DNA from: a virus
IMG/VR virus record: IMGVR_UViG_3300032088_000017
Location: 1-44,015 of that record
DNA: 44,015 bases
Strand: one strand, 5' to 3'
Below are positions 22,814-35,614 of this stretch, in pieces. The notes beneath the pieces were generated by a model. That model worked only from the letters and a program-made list of their open reading frames with translations. It ran no database searches and had not been told where the DNA came from. The first letter of the stretch is position 1; each line of letters opens with the position of its first letter. A program made the translations under genes and the position numbers.

Positions 22814-23611
22814 ATGAAACGCTTGATTTATCAAGTGTATGTCGGTAAAAAATCGAGGTTATACGATCATTGTATAGCCTCTGTTGCCGCATACTGTAAA
22901 GAGCATAACATCGAACATGTTATTCAAAAGCAACCAATCTTAAAAATTAAACCAGACGTCTTTGCCACAAATCGCAGTAAAGAGTCGTATGAAAAGCACG
23001 GTGGTTTTCTTCCTATTTTTGAGAAAGAAAACGCATTTACGTATTTAAAAACTTATGACTCAGTTGCTATCATTGATGCCGACATATGGATTAGACCAGG
23101 ATCACCGAACATATTTGATGCGGTGCCTATGCAGTATGATTTTGGCGGAGTATTAGAACGCGATATGCCTGTCACTGCATCGTACCTTCGTAAAATAGCA
23201 AATTATTCTCGTATGCAATATGGCATGTCAAACATAAATCATTTGTTTGATTGGAAACATAAGAGCGGTGCTGGTGCAGACTTTTATAATATGGGTATGA
23301 TGGTCCTCAATAAAGGTATAACTACTCATACACGTAACCAGACACCTATGCAGTTTCTTAACCGTCCAGAGTTTAAAGCGTTTGTGGATGGCGTTGGCAA
23401 TTGGAAATGGTCAACCGATCAAACGTTGCTTAACGTATGGGTAAAGGAATCTAAAATGATGACAAAGAACTTATCATTTGAATGGAACGGTTTGTTTTCT
23501 GCAATCGACGCAAGGAAAATCAAAGAGTGTAATTTTGTGCACTTTTTCTTAAAAGATAAACTTCCGTTGCGCGGCGAAAACGTACAGGAGCTCATGTCAT
23601 ATGTTGATTAA
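22814..23611 (+). CDS. Glycosyltransferase (GT-A type)
   Basis: A 265-residue protein with the look of a GT-A glycosyltransferase: a beta strand start (RLIYQVYVG), a DxD-type metal and sugar-nucleotide site in VAIIDADIWI (about residues 75-84), and a later DQTLLNVW motif. It probably transfers a sugar onto phage or host surface structures, or onto DNA. AGGTGA precedes the ATG. It is the first of seven overlapping or abutting genes for glycan modification. Confidence 0.75.
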   Translation: MKRLIYQVYVGKKSRLYDHCIASVAAYCKEHNIEHVIQKQPILKIKPDVFATNRSKESYEKHGGFLPIFEKENAFTYLKTYDSVAIIDADIWIRPGSPNIFDAVPMQYDFGGVLERDMPVTASYLRKIANYSRMQYGMSNINHLFDWKHKSGAGADFYNMGMMVLNKGITTHTRNQTPMQFLNRPEFKAFVDGVGNWKWSTDQTLLNVWVKESKMMTKNLSFEWNGLFSAIDARKIKECNFVHFFLKDKLPLRGENVQELMSYVD

Positions 23612-24296
23612 TAAAAAGATCTTTGTGCATATACCTAAGAACGCAGGTATGACTATCAGGCATAGTGTATTTTTAAAAGACAAGATCTTAGTCAATAATC
23701 AGAACACTCATAAGAGTCGAGAGTATACACAAGAACTTTTAGATACAATGGCGATGACCGGAGATCACCATGGCATTGAACACGCACGATGGAAGGATCT
23801 AAATCCAGACTACACTAAACAATTTGGCGCCTTTGCTGTTATCCGTAACCCGTGGGATCGTGTAGTGTCTCGCTATTTCTTTGCCAAAAAGGTTATTGAG
23901 GTAGAGAGAAAGGTAGATGCAAGTTATGCAGATGTTTCGTCGTTTGAAGCGTTTTTGGAAGAACGTCATAAATGGGGCAATCACCCTTTTATGTGGCACC
24001 GTGCGATTCGAGGATGGTATCCTGCTCTTAATCATGTTACTGATGACACTGGGACTGTTAGGTGTGATATAATTAGATTTGAGCAATTAAATGCTGATCT
24101 AATAAAATACTTTAACATCCCGCAAATGTCACGTGCACGGAACGTTACAGCCTTAAACGAAGGATCCTATCGGGACATGTACAACGCCGATACAGCTAAT
24201 ATTGTTGGCGACTGGTATAAAGAAGACATTGATTATTTTGGCTATGATTTTGGAACTGGGCCAAGCAAGAATTATTGGAGATTAGATAATGAGTGA
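23601..24296 (+). CDS. PAPS-dependent sulfotransferase-like protein
   Basis: A 231-residue sulfotransferase: the 5'-phosphosulfate loop FVHIPKNAGMT (residues 8-18, replacing HxPKTGGT) and the 3'-phosphate motif IRNPWDRVVSRYFF (81-94) are both clear. Such enzymes move sulfate from PAPS to a sugar or other acceptor. It starts inside the preceding glycosyltransferase gene (11-base overlap) and overlaps the methyltransferase. In this setting it may sulfate a glycan made by the neighbouring transferases. Confidence 0.88.
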   Translation: MLINKKIFVHIPKNAGMTIRHSVFLKDKILVNNQNTHKSREYTQELLDTMAMTGDHHGIEHARWKDLNPDYTKQFGAFAVIRNPWDRVVSRYFFAKKVIEVERKVDASYADVSSFEAFLEERHKWGNHPFMWHRAIRGWYPALNHVTDDTGTVRCDIIRFEQLNADLIKYFNIPQMSRARNVTALNEGSYRDMYNADTANIVGDWYKEDIDYFGYDFGTGPSKNYWRLDNE

Positions 24297-24915
24297 ATTA
24301 GGAGATTTATTTAATAAGTACGGATGCGATAAGACACGTAAACATCAGTACGATCGTGTGTATGCACCAGTGCTCGATACAATGATGAATAAACGAATCA
24401 ACGTCTTAGAAGTTGGTGTATTCAATGGACATAGTACCGAAGCATTTCTTCAGTATTTGCCTATGGCACATATGTACGGATTAGATATTTTTACTCGGAC
24501 TCGCGCTGAAGATTTGCCGTGCTATACATTTCAGCGGGCAGACTGGATCAAGGCAAGTAGCACTGATCCTTCAATTGGTAGGCAACTCAAAGAAAAATGG
24601 GGCAACATCAAGTTCGATGTAATCATTGACGATGGCTTGCACACGCCTAAGGCTAACATGCAGACATTTAATAATCTGTCGCCGTTTTTGGCAGATGACG
24701 GTGTTTACTTTATTGAAGATGTATTTCCGATGGAAATAATGACGCAAAAAGAATTATCAATTGATTGGTTAATGCGTTATCCTGATCGATACAACCACTT
24801 AGATAATAATATGTTTCTTAGTGCACTAGACAAATCTAATATGAAAATTAAACGCCACGATCAGCGGAAACTGACTAAACAGCCAGACAGTTATATAGTA
24901 GAGCTAAGAAAATGA
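24289..24915 (+). CDS. SAM-dependent methyltransferase, sugar O-methyltransferase type
   Basis: A 208-residue class I methyltransferase. The N-terminus (LGDLFNKYGCDKTRKHQY) is typical of glycan and macrolide O-methyltransferases; motif I is VLEVGVFNGHS (39-49), and the acidic post-motif reads FDVIIDDGLHTP. It overlaps both neighbours (8 and 4 bases). The likely role is methylation of a sugar in the same glycan as the sulfotransferase substrate. Confidence 0.85.
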   Translation: MSELGDLFNKYGCDKTRKHQYDRVYAPVLDTMMNKRINVLEVGVFNGHSTEAFLQYLPMAHMYGLDIFTRTRAEDLPCYTFQRADWIKASSTDPSIGRQLKEKWGNIKFDVIIDDGLHTPKANMQTFNNLSPFLADDGVYFIEDVFPMEIMTQKELSIDWLMRYPDRYNHLDNNMFLSALDKSNMKIKRHDQRKLTKQPDSYIVELRK

Positions 24916-25634
24916 GAGCCTATGTCATAACGGTATTCCAAAATGACATGTCAGAAACCGCGGCAGAAGTGGCTATCAAGTCATCAGCTGATGTTGGCAA
25001 TGAGTTTAGTATTCGTAAATTTTACGGGACTAGACCAGACGACGCTCAAGAAGAATTAAAGCAAGAGGGTTTGCAATGGACATATCCGTGGGAAGGCAGT
25101 CGTATGGATATGGATACTGGGCTAACACTCAGTGCATATCGTACAGCTGATCCTAGAAAGCGGATTGCTTGCTTTATGAGTCACTACAAAATATGGAAAC
25201 GATGTGTCGATATTAATGAGCCTGTTGTGGTTTTAGAACACGATGCTTTATGTATAAAAAAGTTTCCGCTCACCCATCAATTCTTTACTGCGCCTAAAAC
25301 AGGTGTTTTAGGTATTAATTCACCGCTAGGCGCAACTCGTAGAGCAGGCATGTTTCATGAAAATATTCAGAACTCTAAAAACCTGCCGCATAACAAAGAC
25401 AAACAATGTCTAACAATCCCGAGAGTCGATCAGTATGATGTGCCACAAGGACTAGCCGGAAACAGCGCATATATAATCAAACCAGCCTACGCAGAGATGA
25501 TTTTAAAAAAGATCAAGCGGATAGGTGCATGGCCAAATGACGCGTTGTTATGCTACCAGAATTTTTCTTTTCTTCGTGTCAGCAATGAATATTATACAAG
25601 GGTGCAAGGCTTGCCAAGTACAACTACATTATGA
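24912..25634 (+). CDS. GT25-like glycosyltransferase
   Basis: A 240-residue protein resembling family 25 (lipooligosaccharide) glycosyltransferases: ACFMSHYKIWKRC followed by PVVVLEHDALC, where EHD replaces the usual EDD, and a later GLAGNSAYIIKPAYAE. It overlaps its neighbours by 4 bases on each side. The adjacent gene is a clear paralogue, so the two may add successive sugars. Confidence 0.8.
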   Translation: MRAYVITVFQNDMSETAAEVAIKSSADVGNEFSIRKFYGTRPDDAQEELKQEGLQWTYPWEGSRMDMDTGLTLSAYRTADPRKRIACFMSHYKIWKRCVDINEPVVVLEHDALCIKKFPLTHQFFTAPKTGVLGINSPLGATRRAGMFHENIQNSKNLPHNKDKQCLTIPRVDQYDVPQGLAGNSAYIIKPAYAEMILKKIKRIGAWPNDALLCYQNFSFLRVSNEYYTRVQGLPSTTTL

Positions 25635-26284
25635 AACATTATGTCATCACAATAGAAGATAATCCAAAATCAGTTAAGGCTGCTGAACGGTGCATCAAAT
25701 CAGGCTATCAGCATGGCGGCATCCAAGTACACAAATGGAAAGCAACTACTCCGGCCGATGATATACAATCTATGATAAAGAACTTTGGCATCAACATGAC
25801 AGCTATGAACGAGATTTATTCTCGTACACCAAATTGCATGGCAGCGTTCTTATCACATTTTAGCCTTTGGAAAGAATCAGTAGACACAAATCAGGAAATA
25901 ACTATATTCGAGCATGATGCAGTCTGCGTACAGAATATTCCTACAGTTATTAAGTATAACGGCTGCGTATCACTTGGCGCGCCGTCGTACGGTAAGTTTA
26001 ATACGCCAACGTCTTTTGGTGTAGTGCCGTTGCAGTCTAAAAGATATTTTCCAGGAGCGCATGCATACCGAGTAAATCCGGGAGGCGCATCAATATTGAT
26101 ACAGCAAGCTATTATGCAGGCGCGCCCGACTGATGTGTTTCTTAATATAGATACATTTCCGTTTTTGCAAGAATTTTATCCATGGCCTGTGATGGCCAAA
26201 GACACCTTCACGACTATCCAGAAGTCAGAAGGTTGCCAAGCCAAACATAACTATAACGCTAACTATGAGATAATTGATGTCTAA
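25631..26284 (+). CDS. GT25-like glycosyltransferase, paralogue of the preceding gene
   Basis: A 217-residue protein with the same plan as its upstream neighbour: a start MKHYVITIEDN, then CMAAFLSHFSLWKE and ITIFEHDAVC, and a C-terminal PGAHAYRVNPGGASIL. Sharing the EHD acidic motif supports a tandem duplication. It overlaps by 4 bases upstream and 8 bases downstream. Role as for its paralogue, with probably a different sugar or acceptor. Confidence 0.78.
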   Translation: MKHYVITIEDNPKSVKAAERCIKSGYQHGGIQVHKWKATTPADDIQSMIKNFGINMTAMNEIYSRTPNCMAAFLSHFSLWKESVDTNQEITIFEHDAVCVQNIPTVIKYNGCVSLGAPSYGKFNTPTSFGVVPLQSKRYFPGAHAYRVNPGGASILIQQAIMQARPTDVFLNIDTFPFLQEFYPWPVMAKDTFTTIQKSEGCQAKHNYNANYEIIDV

Positions 26285-26933
26285 ACCAGATTTAAGTCAG
26301 TGCGTACTAACAGGGTGCGATAGAGAAGCCGAGTGGATGTTACCTTGGTTTATTAAAAACTATCATAGGCATAACGACATGCCCTTGTCTGTCATTAACT
26401 TTGGCATGTCACCTTCAATGTTAGAGTGGCTTGAAACGCAGGTTAATTCTATCGGGCACCTTGAAACCCATACTGGTCAGCCTACTTGGTTCAAAAAACC
26501 TGGAGCAATGCTTAATTCACCCTATAAGCGTACAGTGTGGATCGATGTGGACTGTGAAATACTTGGTAACATTTCTGGCATATGGAAACATTGCATGCCA
26601 CAGAAACTCAACATGTGTCTTGATAAACCTTGGACAAAGCGCGCTGGTGAAGAGTGGTACAACTCAGGCGTAGTTGCGTATCAAGGCAAGCCAGACATTT
26701 TAAACAATTGGGCTCGCAAATGCTTTGAAAATCCTACGCAACGCGGGGATCAAGAAGAACTACACTACATGTTAGATCCGCTTCAAAAAGCTATATACAT
26801 AAACCAGCTGCCGCCACAATATAATTATTTACGACTAGACGCTGTTGACGGCAACAAAGTAAAGAATATCCTTATTAAGCATCACACTGGTGCTAAAGGA
26901 AAAGAGATTATTAGAGGTTTGATGAATGAGTAA
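26277..26933 (+). CDS. Glycosyltransferase-like protein with DxD motif
   Basis: A 218-residue protein with VWIDVDCEILG (about residues 87-97), a DxD metal-binding motif, and a downstream EEWYNSGVVAYQGKP and DQEELHYML typical of GT-A/GT8-type enzymes. I use the ATG at 26277; the TTG three bases earlier is an unnecessary start. It overlaps the previous stop by 8 bases and the next start by 8. Confidence 0.75.
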   Translation: MSKPDLSQCVLTGCDREAEWMLPWFIKNYHRHNDMPLSVINFGMSPSMLEWLETQVNSIGHLETHTGQPTWFKKPGAMLNSPYKRTVWIDVDCEILGNISGIWKHCMPQKLNMCLDKPWTKRAGEEWYNSGVVAYQGKPDILNNWARKCFENPTQRGDQEELHYMLDPLQKAIYINQLPPQYNYLRLDAVDGNKVKNILIKHHTGAKGKEIIRGLMNE

Positions 26934-27531
26934 AGTAGCCCACATTATTGGCAATGGTGACAGTCATCGCTTTTACAAACCGGCTAAGGGATTAAAGCTT
27001 ACGTGTAATCTGCCGCCAATGGCAGTTGATAACGTGTATGCCACGGCTATTGTGGATTTTAAAATGTGTCGAGCTCTGACCGAAGGCAGTGTTAATCTCA
27101 ACGCATATGAGTGGGTTATGGGCGCACGTCCTAAAAAGTTTACAGAAATGAATCCTCAGTTTCATATGCGTTTTGCACGGAACATTAAGGATTTTTATCT
27201 TGATTTACCCAGATATGCTAACAATTATACTGATTTTAACTGTGGTCACATGTGTACACACTACACAGCTAATCGACTCAATTGCGATGAAATACACATG
27301 TATGGCTTTGATTCTATATTTGATTTTAATCTGGTATCCACAACTGATTTCGTATTAAACTCTGAACGCGACGCATTTAACACACATCGATTAGCACAAA
27401 ACTGGCGGCCAATTTGGGAAGGCTTATTCCGTGAATTTCCCAAGACTCAATTTGTGGTGTACCATATGCATGGTAAACCTAAGATTAGTTTACCTGATAA
27501 TGTTGAAGTAATTCCAGGAAAGTTAAAATAA
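26926..27531 (+). CDS. Glycan-cluster protein with Rossmann-like start
   Basis: A 201-residue protein, starting VAHIIGNGDSHRFY, with a middle block FNCGHMCTHYTANRL and EIHMYGFDSIFDF. This arrangement recurs in phage proteins near glycosyltransferases and loosely resembles DUF115-type or sialyltransferase-like folds; the activity is unknown. It ends the coupled glycan cluster, followed by a promoter within 5 bases. Confidence 0.65.
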   Translation: MSKVAHIIGNGDSHRFYKPAKGLKLTCNLPPMAVDNVYATAIVDFKMCRALTEGSVNLNAYEWVMGARPKKFTEMNPQFHMRFARNIKDFYLDLPRYANNYTDFNCGHMCTHYTANRLNCDEIHMYGFDSIFDFNLVSTTDFVLNSERDAFNTHRLAQNWRPIWEGLFREFPKTQFVVYHMHGKPKISLPDNVEVIPGKLK

Positions 27532-29754: not shown

Positions 29755-29795
29755 CATAAATAACTATGTACAACGCAGCAGAAATGTGGTAGTAT
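29755..29795 (+). promoter_or_regulatory. Late-like box and early promoter ahead of the RNA candidate
   Basis: TGTACA (29767-29772), a 17-bp spacer ending TGTGG, and TAGTAT (29790-29795) predict a start near 29802. A CATAAATA (29755-29762), one mismatch from the late consensus, lies just upstream. Together they suggest the RNA region that follows could be transcribed at more than one stage. Confidence 0.55.
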
Positions 29796-29801
29796 GTAGT
29801 T

Positions 29802-29934
29802 AAATCCTAGACACGTGATCTCGTACGAGGTGCTCTAGGTCGGTGTAAGCGTTGGTACCGTTGTAAAACCCAACCGGTTGATGCACACGTTAAGTGCATA
29901 TGTAGCGAGGCCGCTCTGCAGTAAGCGGCCTCGT
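29802..29934 (+). ncRNA. Structured non-coding RNA candidate
   Basis: There is no credible gene in 29755-29971. The stretch after the promoter folds into consecutive hairpins: CCTAGA/TCTAGG (29806-29839) enclosing CTCGTACGAG; ACCGTTG (29857-29863) with CAACCGGT (29871-29878) and one bulge; ATGCAC/GTGCAT (29881-29899); and a 10-bp CGAGGCCGCT/AGCGGCCTCG (29906-29933) with an 8-nt loop, more GC-rich than its surroundings and terminator-like but without T's. It is not a tRNA. It could be a regulatory RNA or the leader of the gene at 29972. Confidence 0.6.
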
Positions 29935-29971
29935 GAATTTACAACTGCAATATAATACGGAGGAAATACAA

Positions 29972-30121
29972 GTGCAAACAACACGTTCTGAACGTATCGC
30001 AAAATCCGGCGCGGCAAGACAACGTCGTAGAGATTTAAAAGATATTTTAGCTGGTAAGACACTCAGACTATTTTCAAAAGCAAGAAAACTCCGACGAAAA
30101 AAATCTAAGTCAATAAACTAA
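29972..30121 (+). CDS. Small Arg/Lys-rich protein
   Basis: A 49-residue, highly basic protein (SGAARQRRRDLKDI, FSKARKLRRKKSKSIN). GTG start at 29972 with GGAGG 9 bases upstream. Likely binds nucleic acid or an acidic partner. The frame extends upstream but only through the RNA hairpin region. Confidence 0.6.
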   Translation: MQTTRSERIAKSGAARQRRRDLKDILAGKTLRLFSKARKLRRKKSKSIN

Positions 30122-30150: not shown

Positions 30151-30654
30151 ATGAAACTGATTACAACTACATTGACGGCAATTGCTATTGCACTGCCGGC
30201 TTATGCGGATACTGTTAGAGCTACAGTGTCGCGAATCGATCCAATTTATCATAACACTACAGTCAACACACCGCGTAACATTTGTCAGAATGTTGAAGTT
30301 CCTATTTACGGCACTGTCCAAGGTGGTGGTGCTACTGGTGGTGACGTTCTTGGAGGTATGATTCTTGGAGCGTTGCTTGGTAAAGGTGTATCTGGAAACG
30401 ATAAAGGCGCTGGTGCAGGCGCAGTCTTTGGCGGTATTATTGCTGCAGATAAAGCGAATAAATCTCGTCAAGTAGTTACTGGCTATCGCTCGGAACAGCA
30501 ATGCCAAACAGTGTATGAATCGCACACTGCGCAGACACTAAAACATTACAAAATATGGTTTACATGGAACGGCCACGAAGGTACTGCCATGACTTATAAT
30601 AAATACCAGGTAGGAAATCGTATTCCTGTGGAAGTTTCACTAAGGGCAAAATAA
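30151..30654 (+). CDS. Periplasmic glycine-zipper protein
   Basis: A 167-residue secreted protein: signal peptide MKLITTTLTAIAIALPAYA with cleavage before Asp20, then a Cys-containing strand region and a glycine-zipper block (GGDVLGGMILGALLGKG, then GAGAGAVFGGIIAAD, about residues 67-107) like the Rickettsia 17-kDa antigen/2TM glycine-zipper family. A later Cys (QQCQTVY) could pair with Cys46. It may embed in the envelope of the infected cell. AGGAGAG precedes the ATG; the stop overlaps the next start. Confidence 0.8.
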   Translation: MKLITTTLTAIAIALPAYADTVRATVSRIDPIYHNTTVNTPRNICQNVEVPIYGTVQGGGATGGDVLGGMILGALLGKGVSGNDKGAGAGAVFGGIIAADKANKSRQVVTGYRSEQQCQTVYESHTAQTLKHYKIWFTWNGHEGTAMTYNKYQVGNRIPVEVSLRAK

Positions 30655-32895: not shown

Positions 32896-34686
32896 TTAAT
32901 TCCTCTCGTACTGCTGCCGTACCATAGCGCGATGCTTTTCATCGGATGCGCCGTTAAAGAAACGAGCAGCTGGGTTATCGTAATTTTCTTGCCCGCCATA
33001 TATCTCTTTTGACTGATAGAATTGACCATCAGGCATTTGCTGAGATTGATAGGCCCGAAACTTGGGATTATAACCAAGTAATGCCGCTTGGGCATCCTCA
33101 CTCTCATCACCAGATAATGCCTGTTCAACTAACACGTCTTCTTCGGCATTCTGCTCTTCAAAACTTACTTGCTCTTCTTCAGATTGTTCTATCTGAATAT
33201 CTGCATTTTTATTTAAAGCCGACTGAAATACTTGGTCTATCGCCAAGTCTAAAGCAGCTATTTCAAATGAATCAACCGTAATTTCAATAACAATTTCATC
33301 TGTATCAATAGCACCGTTTGCTGTTGATCCGAAGCCATCAGACTGATTCGTATTATTTATCATTTGAGCGTTATTGAGACTACTCAATTCAGTATTAATC
33401 TTGCCATAATTATCTACGATTAAAGAACTGCCATTTCCTTGATCTGAGCCAAATTGGTTGTTGCTTATATCATTTTGTAAAAGATCACTGCCTGTTTGTT
33501 GATCGTTAAATGCAGACTCAGAATTTAAAACAGAATTGTTAGTTTGATTTAATGTATTTGATATATTAATATTGGCTTGGGCCAAAGCACCGCTTACTGC
33601 GTCTTGTGCAATTGAAAGGGGGTTTATCGTGACGTTTGAAACAAGTGGTGCTTCTGTTATTTCTGTTATAACATCTGTTATAACTTCAACAGTTTCTTCT
33701 ACAATGACCTCTTGAATCGGCTCTACTACAACAGTCTCAACACTTACTATCACAGGTTCTTCTGCTATAGGTGCTTCTGTGATCTGCGTTATTTCGTCGA
33801 TGAATGCAACTTCTTCTTCAACAGGCACAACCTCTATCGAAGTTGTTTCAGCAATTTGTGCAATGATTTCGTCTTGTTGCCTTACTAGTGCATCAGCGTA
33901 TCCAGGGCATGTGGCATCTAAAAGTGGATCAGTACAATCTTGTGTTATGATAGGATCTACCACTAAAATACTGTAAATGCCGGCTTCTCTAAACTCAGAC
34001 CCATAATACCCTGCTGAGCCAGCAGCGTCTTTACCTTCTACCTCTAATGTAATTGTGTCAATTTTGTCGCCAGTTATAAATGGTTCATACCAATACATGC
34101 CGTACTTGAGCTGCCAGTCATTTATTGGTTTACTGTAATCAAACTCTTTTTCGTCTAACACATTGCCGCTAGGATCTTTAACTATAACTCGTACATATAA
34201 TGGATCTTGCGCTGCGGTTTGCATCTCACTATCGTCCATGGCATTATAATTTTTAACTTTCCACTGATACCTGTAGCCTACGACCGTGATGCCAGCAATC
34301 TTTAATGCCTCGGCAATAGCATCTTGTGTTTGAGATACAATAGTATTGCCACTACTAAAACGAATCGCGCCTTTGCCGTTAGAGCCAACGTTAGCACATC
34401 CACCCGCAGCTTGGCCTCCCCAAGAGCCGTCGCCGCCTGTAACATTCAAACAACCTGACGTTGCTGAAAATTCTGTAGGGCTGTTGTCTATGATCTGATC
34501 CATATACGCTTTACCTTCATCCATCTGATTAATATCACCTGGAGATCCATAAAGAATACTTTGATCGATATCATCTTGGCCCAGATCACCGTCGTAGGTA
34601 TATGTAGATCCGTTTGTTGCTTGAGCGTTACAGCAAGAGAAGCAAAAGAAGAAGACCACCGCCGAGAATAGCGTTAGTTTTAACAT
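32896..34686 (-). CDS. Large secreted marine-phage protein
   Basis: A 596-residue protein with an N-terminal signal peptide (MLKLTLFSAVVFFFCFSCCNAQA). Residues about 55-265 form a beta-rich domain (GCLNVTGGDGSWGG, VVGYRYQWKVKNYN, YYGSEFREAGIYSILVVDPI) ending with DATCPGYADALVRQQ, a pattern I know from secreted proteins of cyano- and pelagiphages. The following 200 residues are acidic Val/Ile/Glu-rich and then Asn/Gln-rich low complexity. The C-terminus is Gln/Tyr rich. Its first 59 bases overlap the end of the upstream gene. The function is unknown; envelope or surface location. Confidence 0.75.
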   Translation of the reverse strand: MLKLTLFSAVVFFFCFSCCNAQATNGSTYTYDGDLGQDDIDQSILYGSPGDINQMDEGKAYMDQIIDNSPTEFSATSGCLNVTGGDGSWGGQAAGGCANVGSNGKGAIRFSSGNTIVSQTQDAIAEALKIAGITVVGYRYQWKVKNYNAMDDSEMQTAAQDPLYVRVIVKDPSGNVLDEKEFDYSKPINDWQLKYGMYWYEPFITGDKIDTITLEVEGKDAAGSAGYYGSEFREAGIYSILVVDPIITQDCTDPLLDATCPGYADALVRQQDEIIAQIAETTSIEVVPVEEEVAFIDEITQITEAPIAEEPVIVSVETVVVEPIQEVIVEETVEVITDVITEITEAPLVSNVTINPLSIAQDAVSGALAQANINISNTLNQTNNSVLNSESAFNDQQTGSDLLQNDISNNQFGSDQGNGSSLIVDNYGKINTELSSLNNAQMINNTNQSDGFGSTANGAIDTDEIVIEITVDSFEIAALDLAIDQVFQSALNKNADIQIEQSEEEQVSFEEQNAEEDVLVEQALSGDESEDAQAALLGYNPKFRAYQSQQMPDGQFYQSKEIYGGQENYDNPAARFFNGASDEKHRAMVRQQYERN

Positions 34687-35614
34687 TTGGCTGATGTCCT
34701 TTTACTGGTAATTCTTCTGGACTATTATCCCATTTAGCTTGAGCTTCTGCACCAATAGAACCTCTAAACGGGCATGGTGTGCCGGCCATCTCCATAGCTT
34801 TAAACACAGATTGATCTTGACACATCAATGACACTGCTGCGACTTTCATCCCCATATTATAGAGGGTTTTTGAATTTTTTAGTCGTTCACAGTTCATATC
34901 TCTGACATGCCCACCGCCTGACGCACCGAATATTTGGGTTTGAACTGCAGCAGAGTAAGTTACAGTACACGTATCATTTCCGCCACCCATAATTGTAGGA
35001 GCTATAGCAGAAGGCGGCGCAGTAATAATTTCTTGAGTTATATTGCTGTCATTAGTATTATTATTATTGTTGTTGTTAGTATTGCTACTAGTAGAATTTA
35101 CTGTGCTATTATTAGTATTGTTATTAGTATTAGTATTGGTATTAGTGTTGGTATTAGTGTTAGTATTATTAGAAGTAATGTTGCTTGTAGAATTAACAGT
35201 TTGGTCGATTGTGCTGTCTGTCGTTTGATCTACTGTCTGATCTACTGTGCTATTTGTTGTTTGAGTCACCGTACTATTATTAGTATTTGTATTGGTATTT
35301 GTATTATTATTAGTATTTGTATTAGCACTAGTTGAACTCACTGTCGTGTTGTTTGTATTAGTATTATTGTTTGTGTTGGTGCTAGTAACAGTGCTATTAT
35401 TAGTATTATTGTTATTATTAGTGTTAGTCGAAGTTACGGTGCTAGTATTAGTATTTGTATTATCAGTAGTAATATCACTAGTTGTAGTATTAGTAGTTGT
35501 GCTGTCAGTTTCAACATAGCTAGTAGAATCAAATTTACCGTCGGCGTCATCTGTCACTTCGCCATAGGTAGGTGCTGCTGCAAGCAAGGCAGCGACTATT
35601 AAATATCTACGCAT
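34628..35614 (-). CDS. Secreted Asn/Thr-rich low-complexity protein
   Basis: A 328-residue protein: signal peptide MRRYLIVAALLAAAPTYG, then about 150 residues (38-190) made almost only of Asn, Thr and Ser in TNTNTN-like runs, with periodic STVTQT/STVDQT blocks; then a folded-looking Cys-containing domain (CTVTYSAAV, DMNCERLKN, LMCQDQSV, GTPCPFRG), and a tail GGG plus eight Leu. It could span the periplasm with a flexible linker and insert at the C-terminus. A late promoter lies 31 bases upstream of the start with AAGGAA between. No family is recognised beyond marine-phage look-alikes. Confidence 0.75.
   Translation of the reverse strand: MRRYLIVAALLAAAPTYGEVTDDADGKFDSTSYVETDSTTTNTTTSDITTDNTNTNTSTVTSTNTNNNNNTNNSTVTSTNTNNNTNTNNTTVSSTSANTNTNNNTNTNTNTNNSTVTQTTNSTVDQTVDQTTDSTIDQTVNSTSNITSNNTNTNTNTNTNTNTNNNTNNSTVNSTSSNTNNNNNNNTNDSNITQEIITAPPSAIAPTIMGGGNDTCTVTYSAAVQTQIFGASGGGHVRDMNCERLKNSKTLYNMGMKVAAVSLMCQDQSVFKAMEMAGTPCPFRGSIGAEAQAKWDNSPEELPVKGHQPNVKTNAILGGGLLLLLLLL
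35040..35503 (-). repeat. Low-complexity repeat tract encoding the Asn/Thr linker
   Basis: A tract of degenerate ATT/GTT-type triplets (on the plus strand TATTATTAGTATTG-like units), interrupted by longer units at about 35190-35270. Such triplet tracts expand and shrink easily. The open frames seen on the plus strand here are by-products of the repeat composition. Confidence 0.8.

Follow-up and report, generated by a model that had tools for sequence, protein, structure and literature searches.

A conserved phage RNA of about 135 nucleotides with two self-complementary hairpin loops

The stretch of virus DNA analysed here (44,015 nt, from IMG/VR record IMGVR_UViG_3300032088_000017; hereafter the window) was found to carry a structured RNA at positions 29806-29933, between two phage genes. 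Judged by comparison of related sequences, the conserved unit is a non-coding RNA of about 135 nt, and it is probable that this is a free-standing phage RNA that homo-oligomerises through two self-complementary loops. The original prediction described the region as an orphan RNA, a term that no longer applies as the same RNA is present in 101 IMG/VR records besides the window. The parts of the element and its surroundings in the window are as follows.

29767-29795, plus strand: promoter TGTACA-17-TAGTAT with extended -10 TGTGGTAGTAT, a perfect copy of a motif recurring in related phages
29806-29839, plus strand: P1 hairpin, CCTAGA...TCTAGG; outer stem paired in 286 of 312 cells (52 distinct sequences)
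29820-29829, plus strand: P1 tip, palindrome CTCGTACGAG, with tetraloop GTAC at 29823-29826; 14 of 15 distinct tetraloops palindromic
29841-29874, plus strand: H-type pseudoknot made of stems A and B
29841-29860, plus strand: pseudoknot stem A, CGGT (29841-29844) with ACCG (29857-29860); C-G replaced by U-A in 7 of 53 sequences
29851-29874, plus strand: pseudoknot stem B, GTTGG (29851-29855) with CCAAC (29870-29874); two-sided changes in 4 of 5 pairs
29875-29880, plus strand: single-stranded CGGTTG, invariant in alignment A3, for which the search patterns partly fixed the letters
29881-29899, plus strand: P3 hairpin, ATGCAC-ACGTTAA-GTGCAT; 5 of 6 pairs with two-sided changes in alignment A5
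29906-29933, plus strand: P4 hairpin with 10-bp stem CGAGGCCGCT/AGCGGCCTCG; two-sided changes in all 8 pairs counted, 99.6% of cells paired
29916-29921, plus strand: P4 loop palindrome CTGCAG, the proposed homotypic kissing site; 186 of 186 cells self-paired in 62 distinct sequences
29972-30121, plus strand: 49-aa ORF downstream of the RNA, a neighbour and no conserved partner; homologues elsewhere not directly downstream of the RNA

Identification of relatives

Loci were fetched via two neighbouring proteins, and blastn of the 217-bp predicted region among these gave L082, L100 and L108, from which a core pattern was derived that retrieved 15 IMG/VR stretches. Looser patterns based on the pseudoknot and on P3 retrieved 43 and 76, respectively, and the three pattern sets together gave 79 loci (L140-L218). 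A covariance model, R1, built from the 53 distinct sequences among these loci and the window, matched 79 of the 79. Patterns based on P4 added 17 loci, and searches of whole records added three with R1 and two with a model R2. The whole-record search with R1 found the RNA in 31 of 49 records, with one copy in each, and that with R2 matched 4 of 52 records, three of which were counted as members; one, G082, is the record of L105. Weak R2 matches at L254 (14.5 bits) and L255 (16.6 bits, in G075) were left out of the membership. Many of the relatives' records are fragments, and absence of the RNA from one of them says little.

The exact 34-base P1 of the window had no match in IMG/VR. Rfam, at gathering and permissive thresholds, placed no family at the RNA in the window or 20 other loci (five at E up to 0.5); matches to RsaJ (11.8 bits), snR75 and Plastid-ycf2 fell below the Rfam threshold and were dismissed. 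Neither ARAGORN nor Rfam detected a tRNA or tmRNA in the window. By blastn no copy of the RNA was seen in INPHARED (50,697 phage records), which returned two chance matches of 21 bases. A pattern scan of bacterial genome contigs gave 11 matches (L219-L229), where roughly 13 were estimated to arise by chance, and R1 matched none of these 11 loci; on this evidence there is thus no bacterial copy. No description of the RNA was found in the literature, in a search that lay largely outside subscription journals and preprints, so that its novelty is unproven.

Conserved fold

The fold was assessed in an alignment of the 53 distinct sequences (A3) fitted to no structure, in which 23 pairs of four helices were counted. 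In all, 98.5% of 1219 cells were paired, against 31-48% in slid controls, and two-sided changes affected 13 pairs and 119 cells where shuffled sequences gave 7.5 and 27.1, a test that kinship among the sequences inflates. An R1-fitted alignment of 62 distinct sequences that includes distant subfamilies (A5) had 98.6% of cells paired and 162 two-sided changes. The truncated copies L180, L189 and L217 were left out of the alignments.

Stem B and P1 lie outside the model. In stem B 96.6% of cells were paired and 22 cells had two-sided changes (4.6 expected from shuffling), the last pair being unformed in 10 sequences, while in the L230 subfamily the pseudoknot is written in wholly different letters, with stem B formed by CAUCA and UGAUG as judged by eye. 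The outer P1 cells listed above compare with 72.9% pairing (maximum 77.9%) when the arms were re-dealt, a count that leans towards pairing through the choice of the P1 start by folding. Pairing of ACCG with the downstream CGGT was ruled out, as UGGU/ACCA variants keep the upstream pairing only. Since most of P3 and some of the pseudoknot had been specified in the patterns used for retrieval, the lack of variation in those letters within the main family is in part built in. The compensatory changes in relatives show P1, the H-type pseudoknot, P3 and P4 to be the conserved fold of these sequences. The four consecutive stems of the original prediction, including its 10-bp stem, which is P4, are found where they had been placed, and the covariation analysis that it proposed has borne them out.

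The RNA in the window folds at -49.7 kcal/mol, where shuffled sequences average -40.9 kcal/mol (z = -2.26) and 4 in 200 do as well; by itself this is modest evidence for an RNA, with the comparative data providing the proof. As predicted, no credible reading frame is present, the longest overlapping frame being an unsupported one of 75 codons on the minus strand. The predicted enrichment in GC holds against the preceding 0.7 kb (0.45-0.49 at the RNA versus 0.29-0.41) and fails against the coding DNA at 30275-30499, which equals the RNA region.

Self-complementary loops

Wherever P4 is complete, in 97 of the 99 tabulated members, its loop is self-complementary without exception. It reads CUGCAG, CCUAGG, CUCGAG or CCGCGG in 95 members and UGCA in two. 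The hexamer was fixed in the pattern by which 17 of the 97 were retrieved, and the unbiased rest is palindromic in 80 of 80; the CCGCGG loop was first met in L105, which was retrieved via a protein neighbour. Across the 62 distinct sequences (9 pattern-fixed) every cell of mirror positions forms a standard pair, and 38 show a two-sided change, whereas slid controls gave 15-71%. Adjacent bases of the loop co-vary in 62 of 62 distinct sequences. Since the two inner positions are next to each other along the strand, intramolecular pairing between them is impossible, and this covariation goes beyond any single-molecule fold. Symmetric replacement in the loop is seen between close pairs, as in L185 (CGCUCGAGCG) and L209 (CGCGCGCGCG).

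In P1, the palindromic tetraloops are of five kinds, GUAC, ACGU, UCGA, GCGC and UGCA, with a chance expectation of 1 in 16 each, and the lone non-palindromic one, of L175, is a wrongly cut segment. A palindrome of at least four bases is present at the P1 tip in 49 of 52 sequences against 33 expected, a moderate excess only, and for the commonest class, the GGCC tips, the palindrome is not significant individually (p about 0.65). On these sequence comparisons, the evidence for the palindrome is strong for P4 and good, though weaker, for P1.

Of the 22 distinct members with a P4 other than CUGCAG, 8 have a P1 tip centred on UGCA, against none of the 30 in which P4 is CUGCAG; this count, confounded by relatedness, hints that the P1 and P4 sites are kept apart from each other. 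The two sites are not always distinct, since L182 (993-1126), unlike nearly all members, has the CUCGAG palindrome core in both loops, and in L247/L249 UGCA is common to both.

Promoter and genomic context

The predicted promoter was confirmed, with TGTACA at 29767-29772, a 17-nt spacer and TAGTAT at 29790-29795. With up to three mismatches the motif TGTACA-N12-TGTGGTAGTAT has three matches in the window against 0.15 expected, that upstream of the RNA being the sole perfect one; over the window and 80 relatives' loci (668 kb) there were 103 matches against 2 after mononucleotide shuffling. As TGTACA-N12-TGTGGTAGaAT, the motif recurs in front of small genes, often with several copies in a locus (L005, L035, L037, L043, L054, L055, L081 and others) and probably represents a phage-wide promoter class in this phage group. 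Transcription of the RNA is inferred to start at about 29802, some 4 nt ahead of P1. The near-perfect late box that had been noted on the upstream side, CATAAATA, one mismatch from TATAAATA, is a chance occurrence, with 107 such sites in the window and 99 expected. The proposal of a phage small RNA with its own promoter is supported by the covarying conserved stems, the real promoter motif and the independent genomic placement of the unit.

In 72 distinct members, neighbouring features were recorded using mechanically called ORFs. In 65 members the feature closest upstream shares the strand of the RNA (40 ORFs and 25 tRNAs); in six it is an opposite-strand ORF of 46-101 codons, and in one the contig ends. 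On the downstream side the closest features are 43 same-strand ORFs, 15 opposite-strand ORFs, 8 tRNAs and 6 contig ends. Many copies lie directly behind tRNA-Arg, and in one type of context the RNA stands behind a gene for a single-strand DNA-binding protein (phrog_224, E 2e-110) and ahead of a convergent gene. Among 80 loci fetched by the 116-aa neighbour of the window RNA, no full copy of the RNA was present in the stretches, with only the end-cut L032 matching. The 49-aa product of 29972 has homologues in 13 loci, counting that of the window, and 8 of the 13 also carry the RNA; the window alone has the gene directly downstream of the RNA. A small basic protein family was considered as a partner of the RNA and rejected, its copies being at varied distances.

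As the phages carry genes such as those for a single-strand DNA-binding protein and for a PhoH whose best matches are in cyanomyophages (44-47% identity), they are probably T4-like. Permuted tmRNA genes of alphaproteobacterial type were observed in two records that also carry the RNA, at L150 2160-2463 (plus strand) and L178 6599-6949 (minus strand), with tags ANDNFAPSGYALAA and ANNNFAPSGYALAA, and hint at alphaproteobacterial hosts.

Further elements were observed near the RNA. Directly 3' of P4 many members have a second, longer RNA-like domain with a long closing stem (about 100-200 nt); it is downstream of the RNA in L146, L161, L218, L236-L238 and L242, and upstream of tRNA-Pro in L170 and L186. 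In the loci where it was scanned, Rfam returned no family for it. A compact pseudoknot-like module, AGGC..GGGG..GCCU-hairpin-CCC, immediately precedes P1 in L142, L155, L158, L160, L181, L182, L187, L201 and L215; in others its place is taken by a simple long hairpin, and both are absent from the window. Elsewhere in the window, the 328-aa ORF at 34628-35614 (minus strand) contains a long stretch of Thr/Asn repeats and has a hydrophobic C-terminus, and a run of ORFs at 22814-27531 (plus strand) resembles, by the look of the sequences, glycosyltransferases or sulfotransferases together with a methyltransferase (24289-24915, phrog_21658), a possible sugar-modification island.

Proposed assembly and alternative explanations

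In the window the RNA would be transcribed from its own promoter, and in most relatives, where it lies just 3' of a same-strand tRNA or gene, it would probably be cut from that transcript. After folding into P1, the pseudoknot, P3 and P4, as the covariation indicates, the tip of P4 is predicted from the covariation of adjacent bases to pair with its counterpart on a second molecule, and the palindromic tips make it very likely that P1 does so too. Each molecule would then have two homotypic sticky ends, leading to dimers or larger homo-oligomers. What the oligomer does in the infected cell may be guessed at with low confidence: it would most likely give a host or phage factor a stable scaffold, or sequester it. 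A more specific arrangement, which we put forward tentatively as somewhat less likely than its contrary, is a minimal bivalent self-assembling unit in which P1-P1 and P4-P4 joints alternate between two kinds of two-fold axis. If so, the copies would close into a dimer, build a dihedral ring or cage, or extend into a fibre, giving an RNA-only nanostructure that phages make during infection from units roughly five times smaller than ROOL.

Among the alternatives, the one given most weight, though still considered unlikely, is that the RNA is a monomer whose conserved single strands let it act as an sRNA or decoy, or that it binds protein, with the palindromes read by a symmetric (dimeric) protein or producing an inconsequential transient dimer. 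The conserved CGGUUG and the P3 loop ACGUNAA of the main family, both partly fixed by the search patterns, are consistent with this. A protein reading a set sequence is, however, incompatible with loops such as CUGCAG, CCUAGG, CUCGAG, CCGCGG and UGCA, which share symmetry alone. The other suggestion of the original prediction was a structured leader for 29972, and a cis-acting leader or riboswitch for the downstream gene would agree with the position of the window RNA between a promoter and a gene, with the Shine-Dalgarno GGAGG after P4 and with the terminator scan of the window, which detected none between the RNA and 29972, so that the RNA may read through into that gene there. In the 72 members, however, no fixed place upstream of one same-strand gene class was found: the RNA follows tRNAs and gene ends, its downstream features vary and in 15 are opposite-strand ORFs, the 49-aa family is unlinked to it, and Rfam offers no match. 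Movement of the RNA relative to protein genes speaks against a leader, which as a conserved role is already contradicted and is regarded as very improbable.

Equally little weight is given to P4 ending the upstream gene's transcript as an ordinary terminator, or stabilising its 3' end, with the remainder incidental, although many copies are right behind gene or tRNA ends, several of them between convergent genes, and some (e.g. L185, L188) have a U-rich tail after P4. The U-tract is absent in the window and in all CCCACGAAAAC types, the scan found no terminator at the window P4, and a terminator needs no palindromic loop, conserved pseudoknot or P3. An element acting as DNA, such as a site of recombination or nicking, or a group of palindromes resembling restriction sites, would account for six-base palindromes in the loops and for the varied placement relative to protein genes. 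It is the least likely of these explanations, as the stems tolerate G-U pairs, the pseudoknot covaries, the upstream feature is so regularly on the same strand and the window copy has a promoter. Homo-oligomerisation through the two loops remains the preferred reading.

Comparison with known RNAs

A parallel from an unrelated virus is the retroviral dimer-initiation loop, an RNA element that forms a homodimer via a six-base palindromic loop flanked by purines. OLE, in turn, is a much larger RNA and bacterial, unlike this phage RNA. Its likeness to the present element lies in a dimer with a kissing loop, the palindromic tetranucleotide of which switches between GGCC, GAUC and AGCU, as described in PMC12286853, where covariation at adjacent loop bases in OLE and GOLLD is also argued to support symmetric intermolecular contacts. 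The cryo-EM account given there has ROOL and GOLLD forming homo-oligomers via loop-loop contacts, some of them symmetric, and describes both, like this RNA, as phage-encoded (also in prophages) and often near tRNAs. Such proximity is found here, a tRNA being the nearest upstream feature in 25 and the nearest downstream feature in 8 of the 72 distinct members. ROOL and GOLLD differ from this RNA in secondary structure and in length, the solved ROOL being 659 nt and many GOLLD over 800 nt against about 135 nt here, and neither they nor OLE gave an Rfam match at the gathering level in the window and 20 other loci. By this analogy, the RNA would work like ROOL, GOLLD and OLE and yet be a member of none of them by model or size.

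In placement, the closest parallel is with rnaC and rnaD of T4, stable small RNAs of 139 and 119 nt situated just 3' of tRNA-Arg in a T4-type phage, a position matching that of many members here. In PMC3014915 and PMC12685909 their role is given as unknown. Homology was not supported, as R1 with filters off gave no match at L250 1909-2172 (minus strand), the best elsewhere being 7.7 bits, and rnaC differs in having, judged by its letters, a tRNA-like arm at its end. The manA and wcaG motifs are structured RNAs of marine T4-like phages and metagenomes that, as presented in PMC2864571, appear to regulate defined gene classes; they differ in this from the present RNA, which has no Rfam match.

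In nature, homo-oligomers made of RNA only have so far been described for just a few RNAs, all of them very large. An RNA of 135 nt that apparently works by the same mechanism, and whose loops change and yet stay palindromic, is small enough for quick synthesis, mutation and structure solving, and this size makes the purpose of self-assembling phage RNAs directly testable. It also bears on the older puzzle of the T4 small RNAs beside tRNA-Arg.
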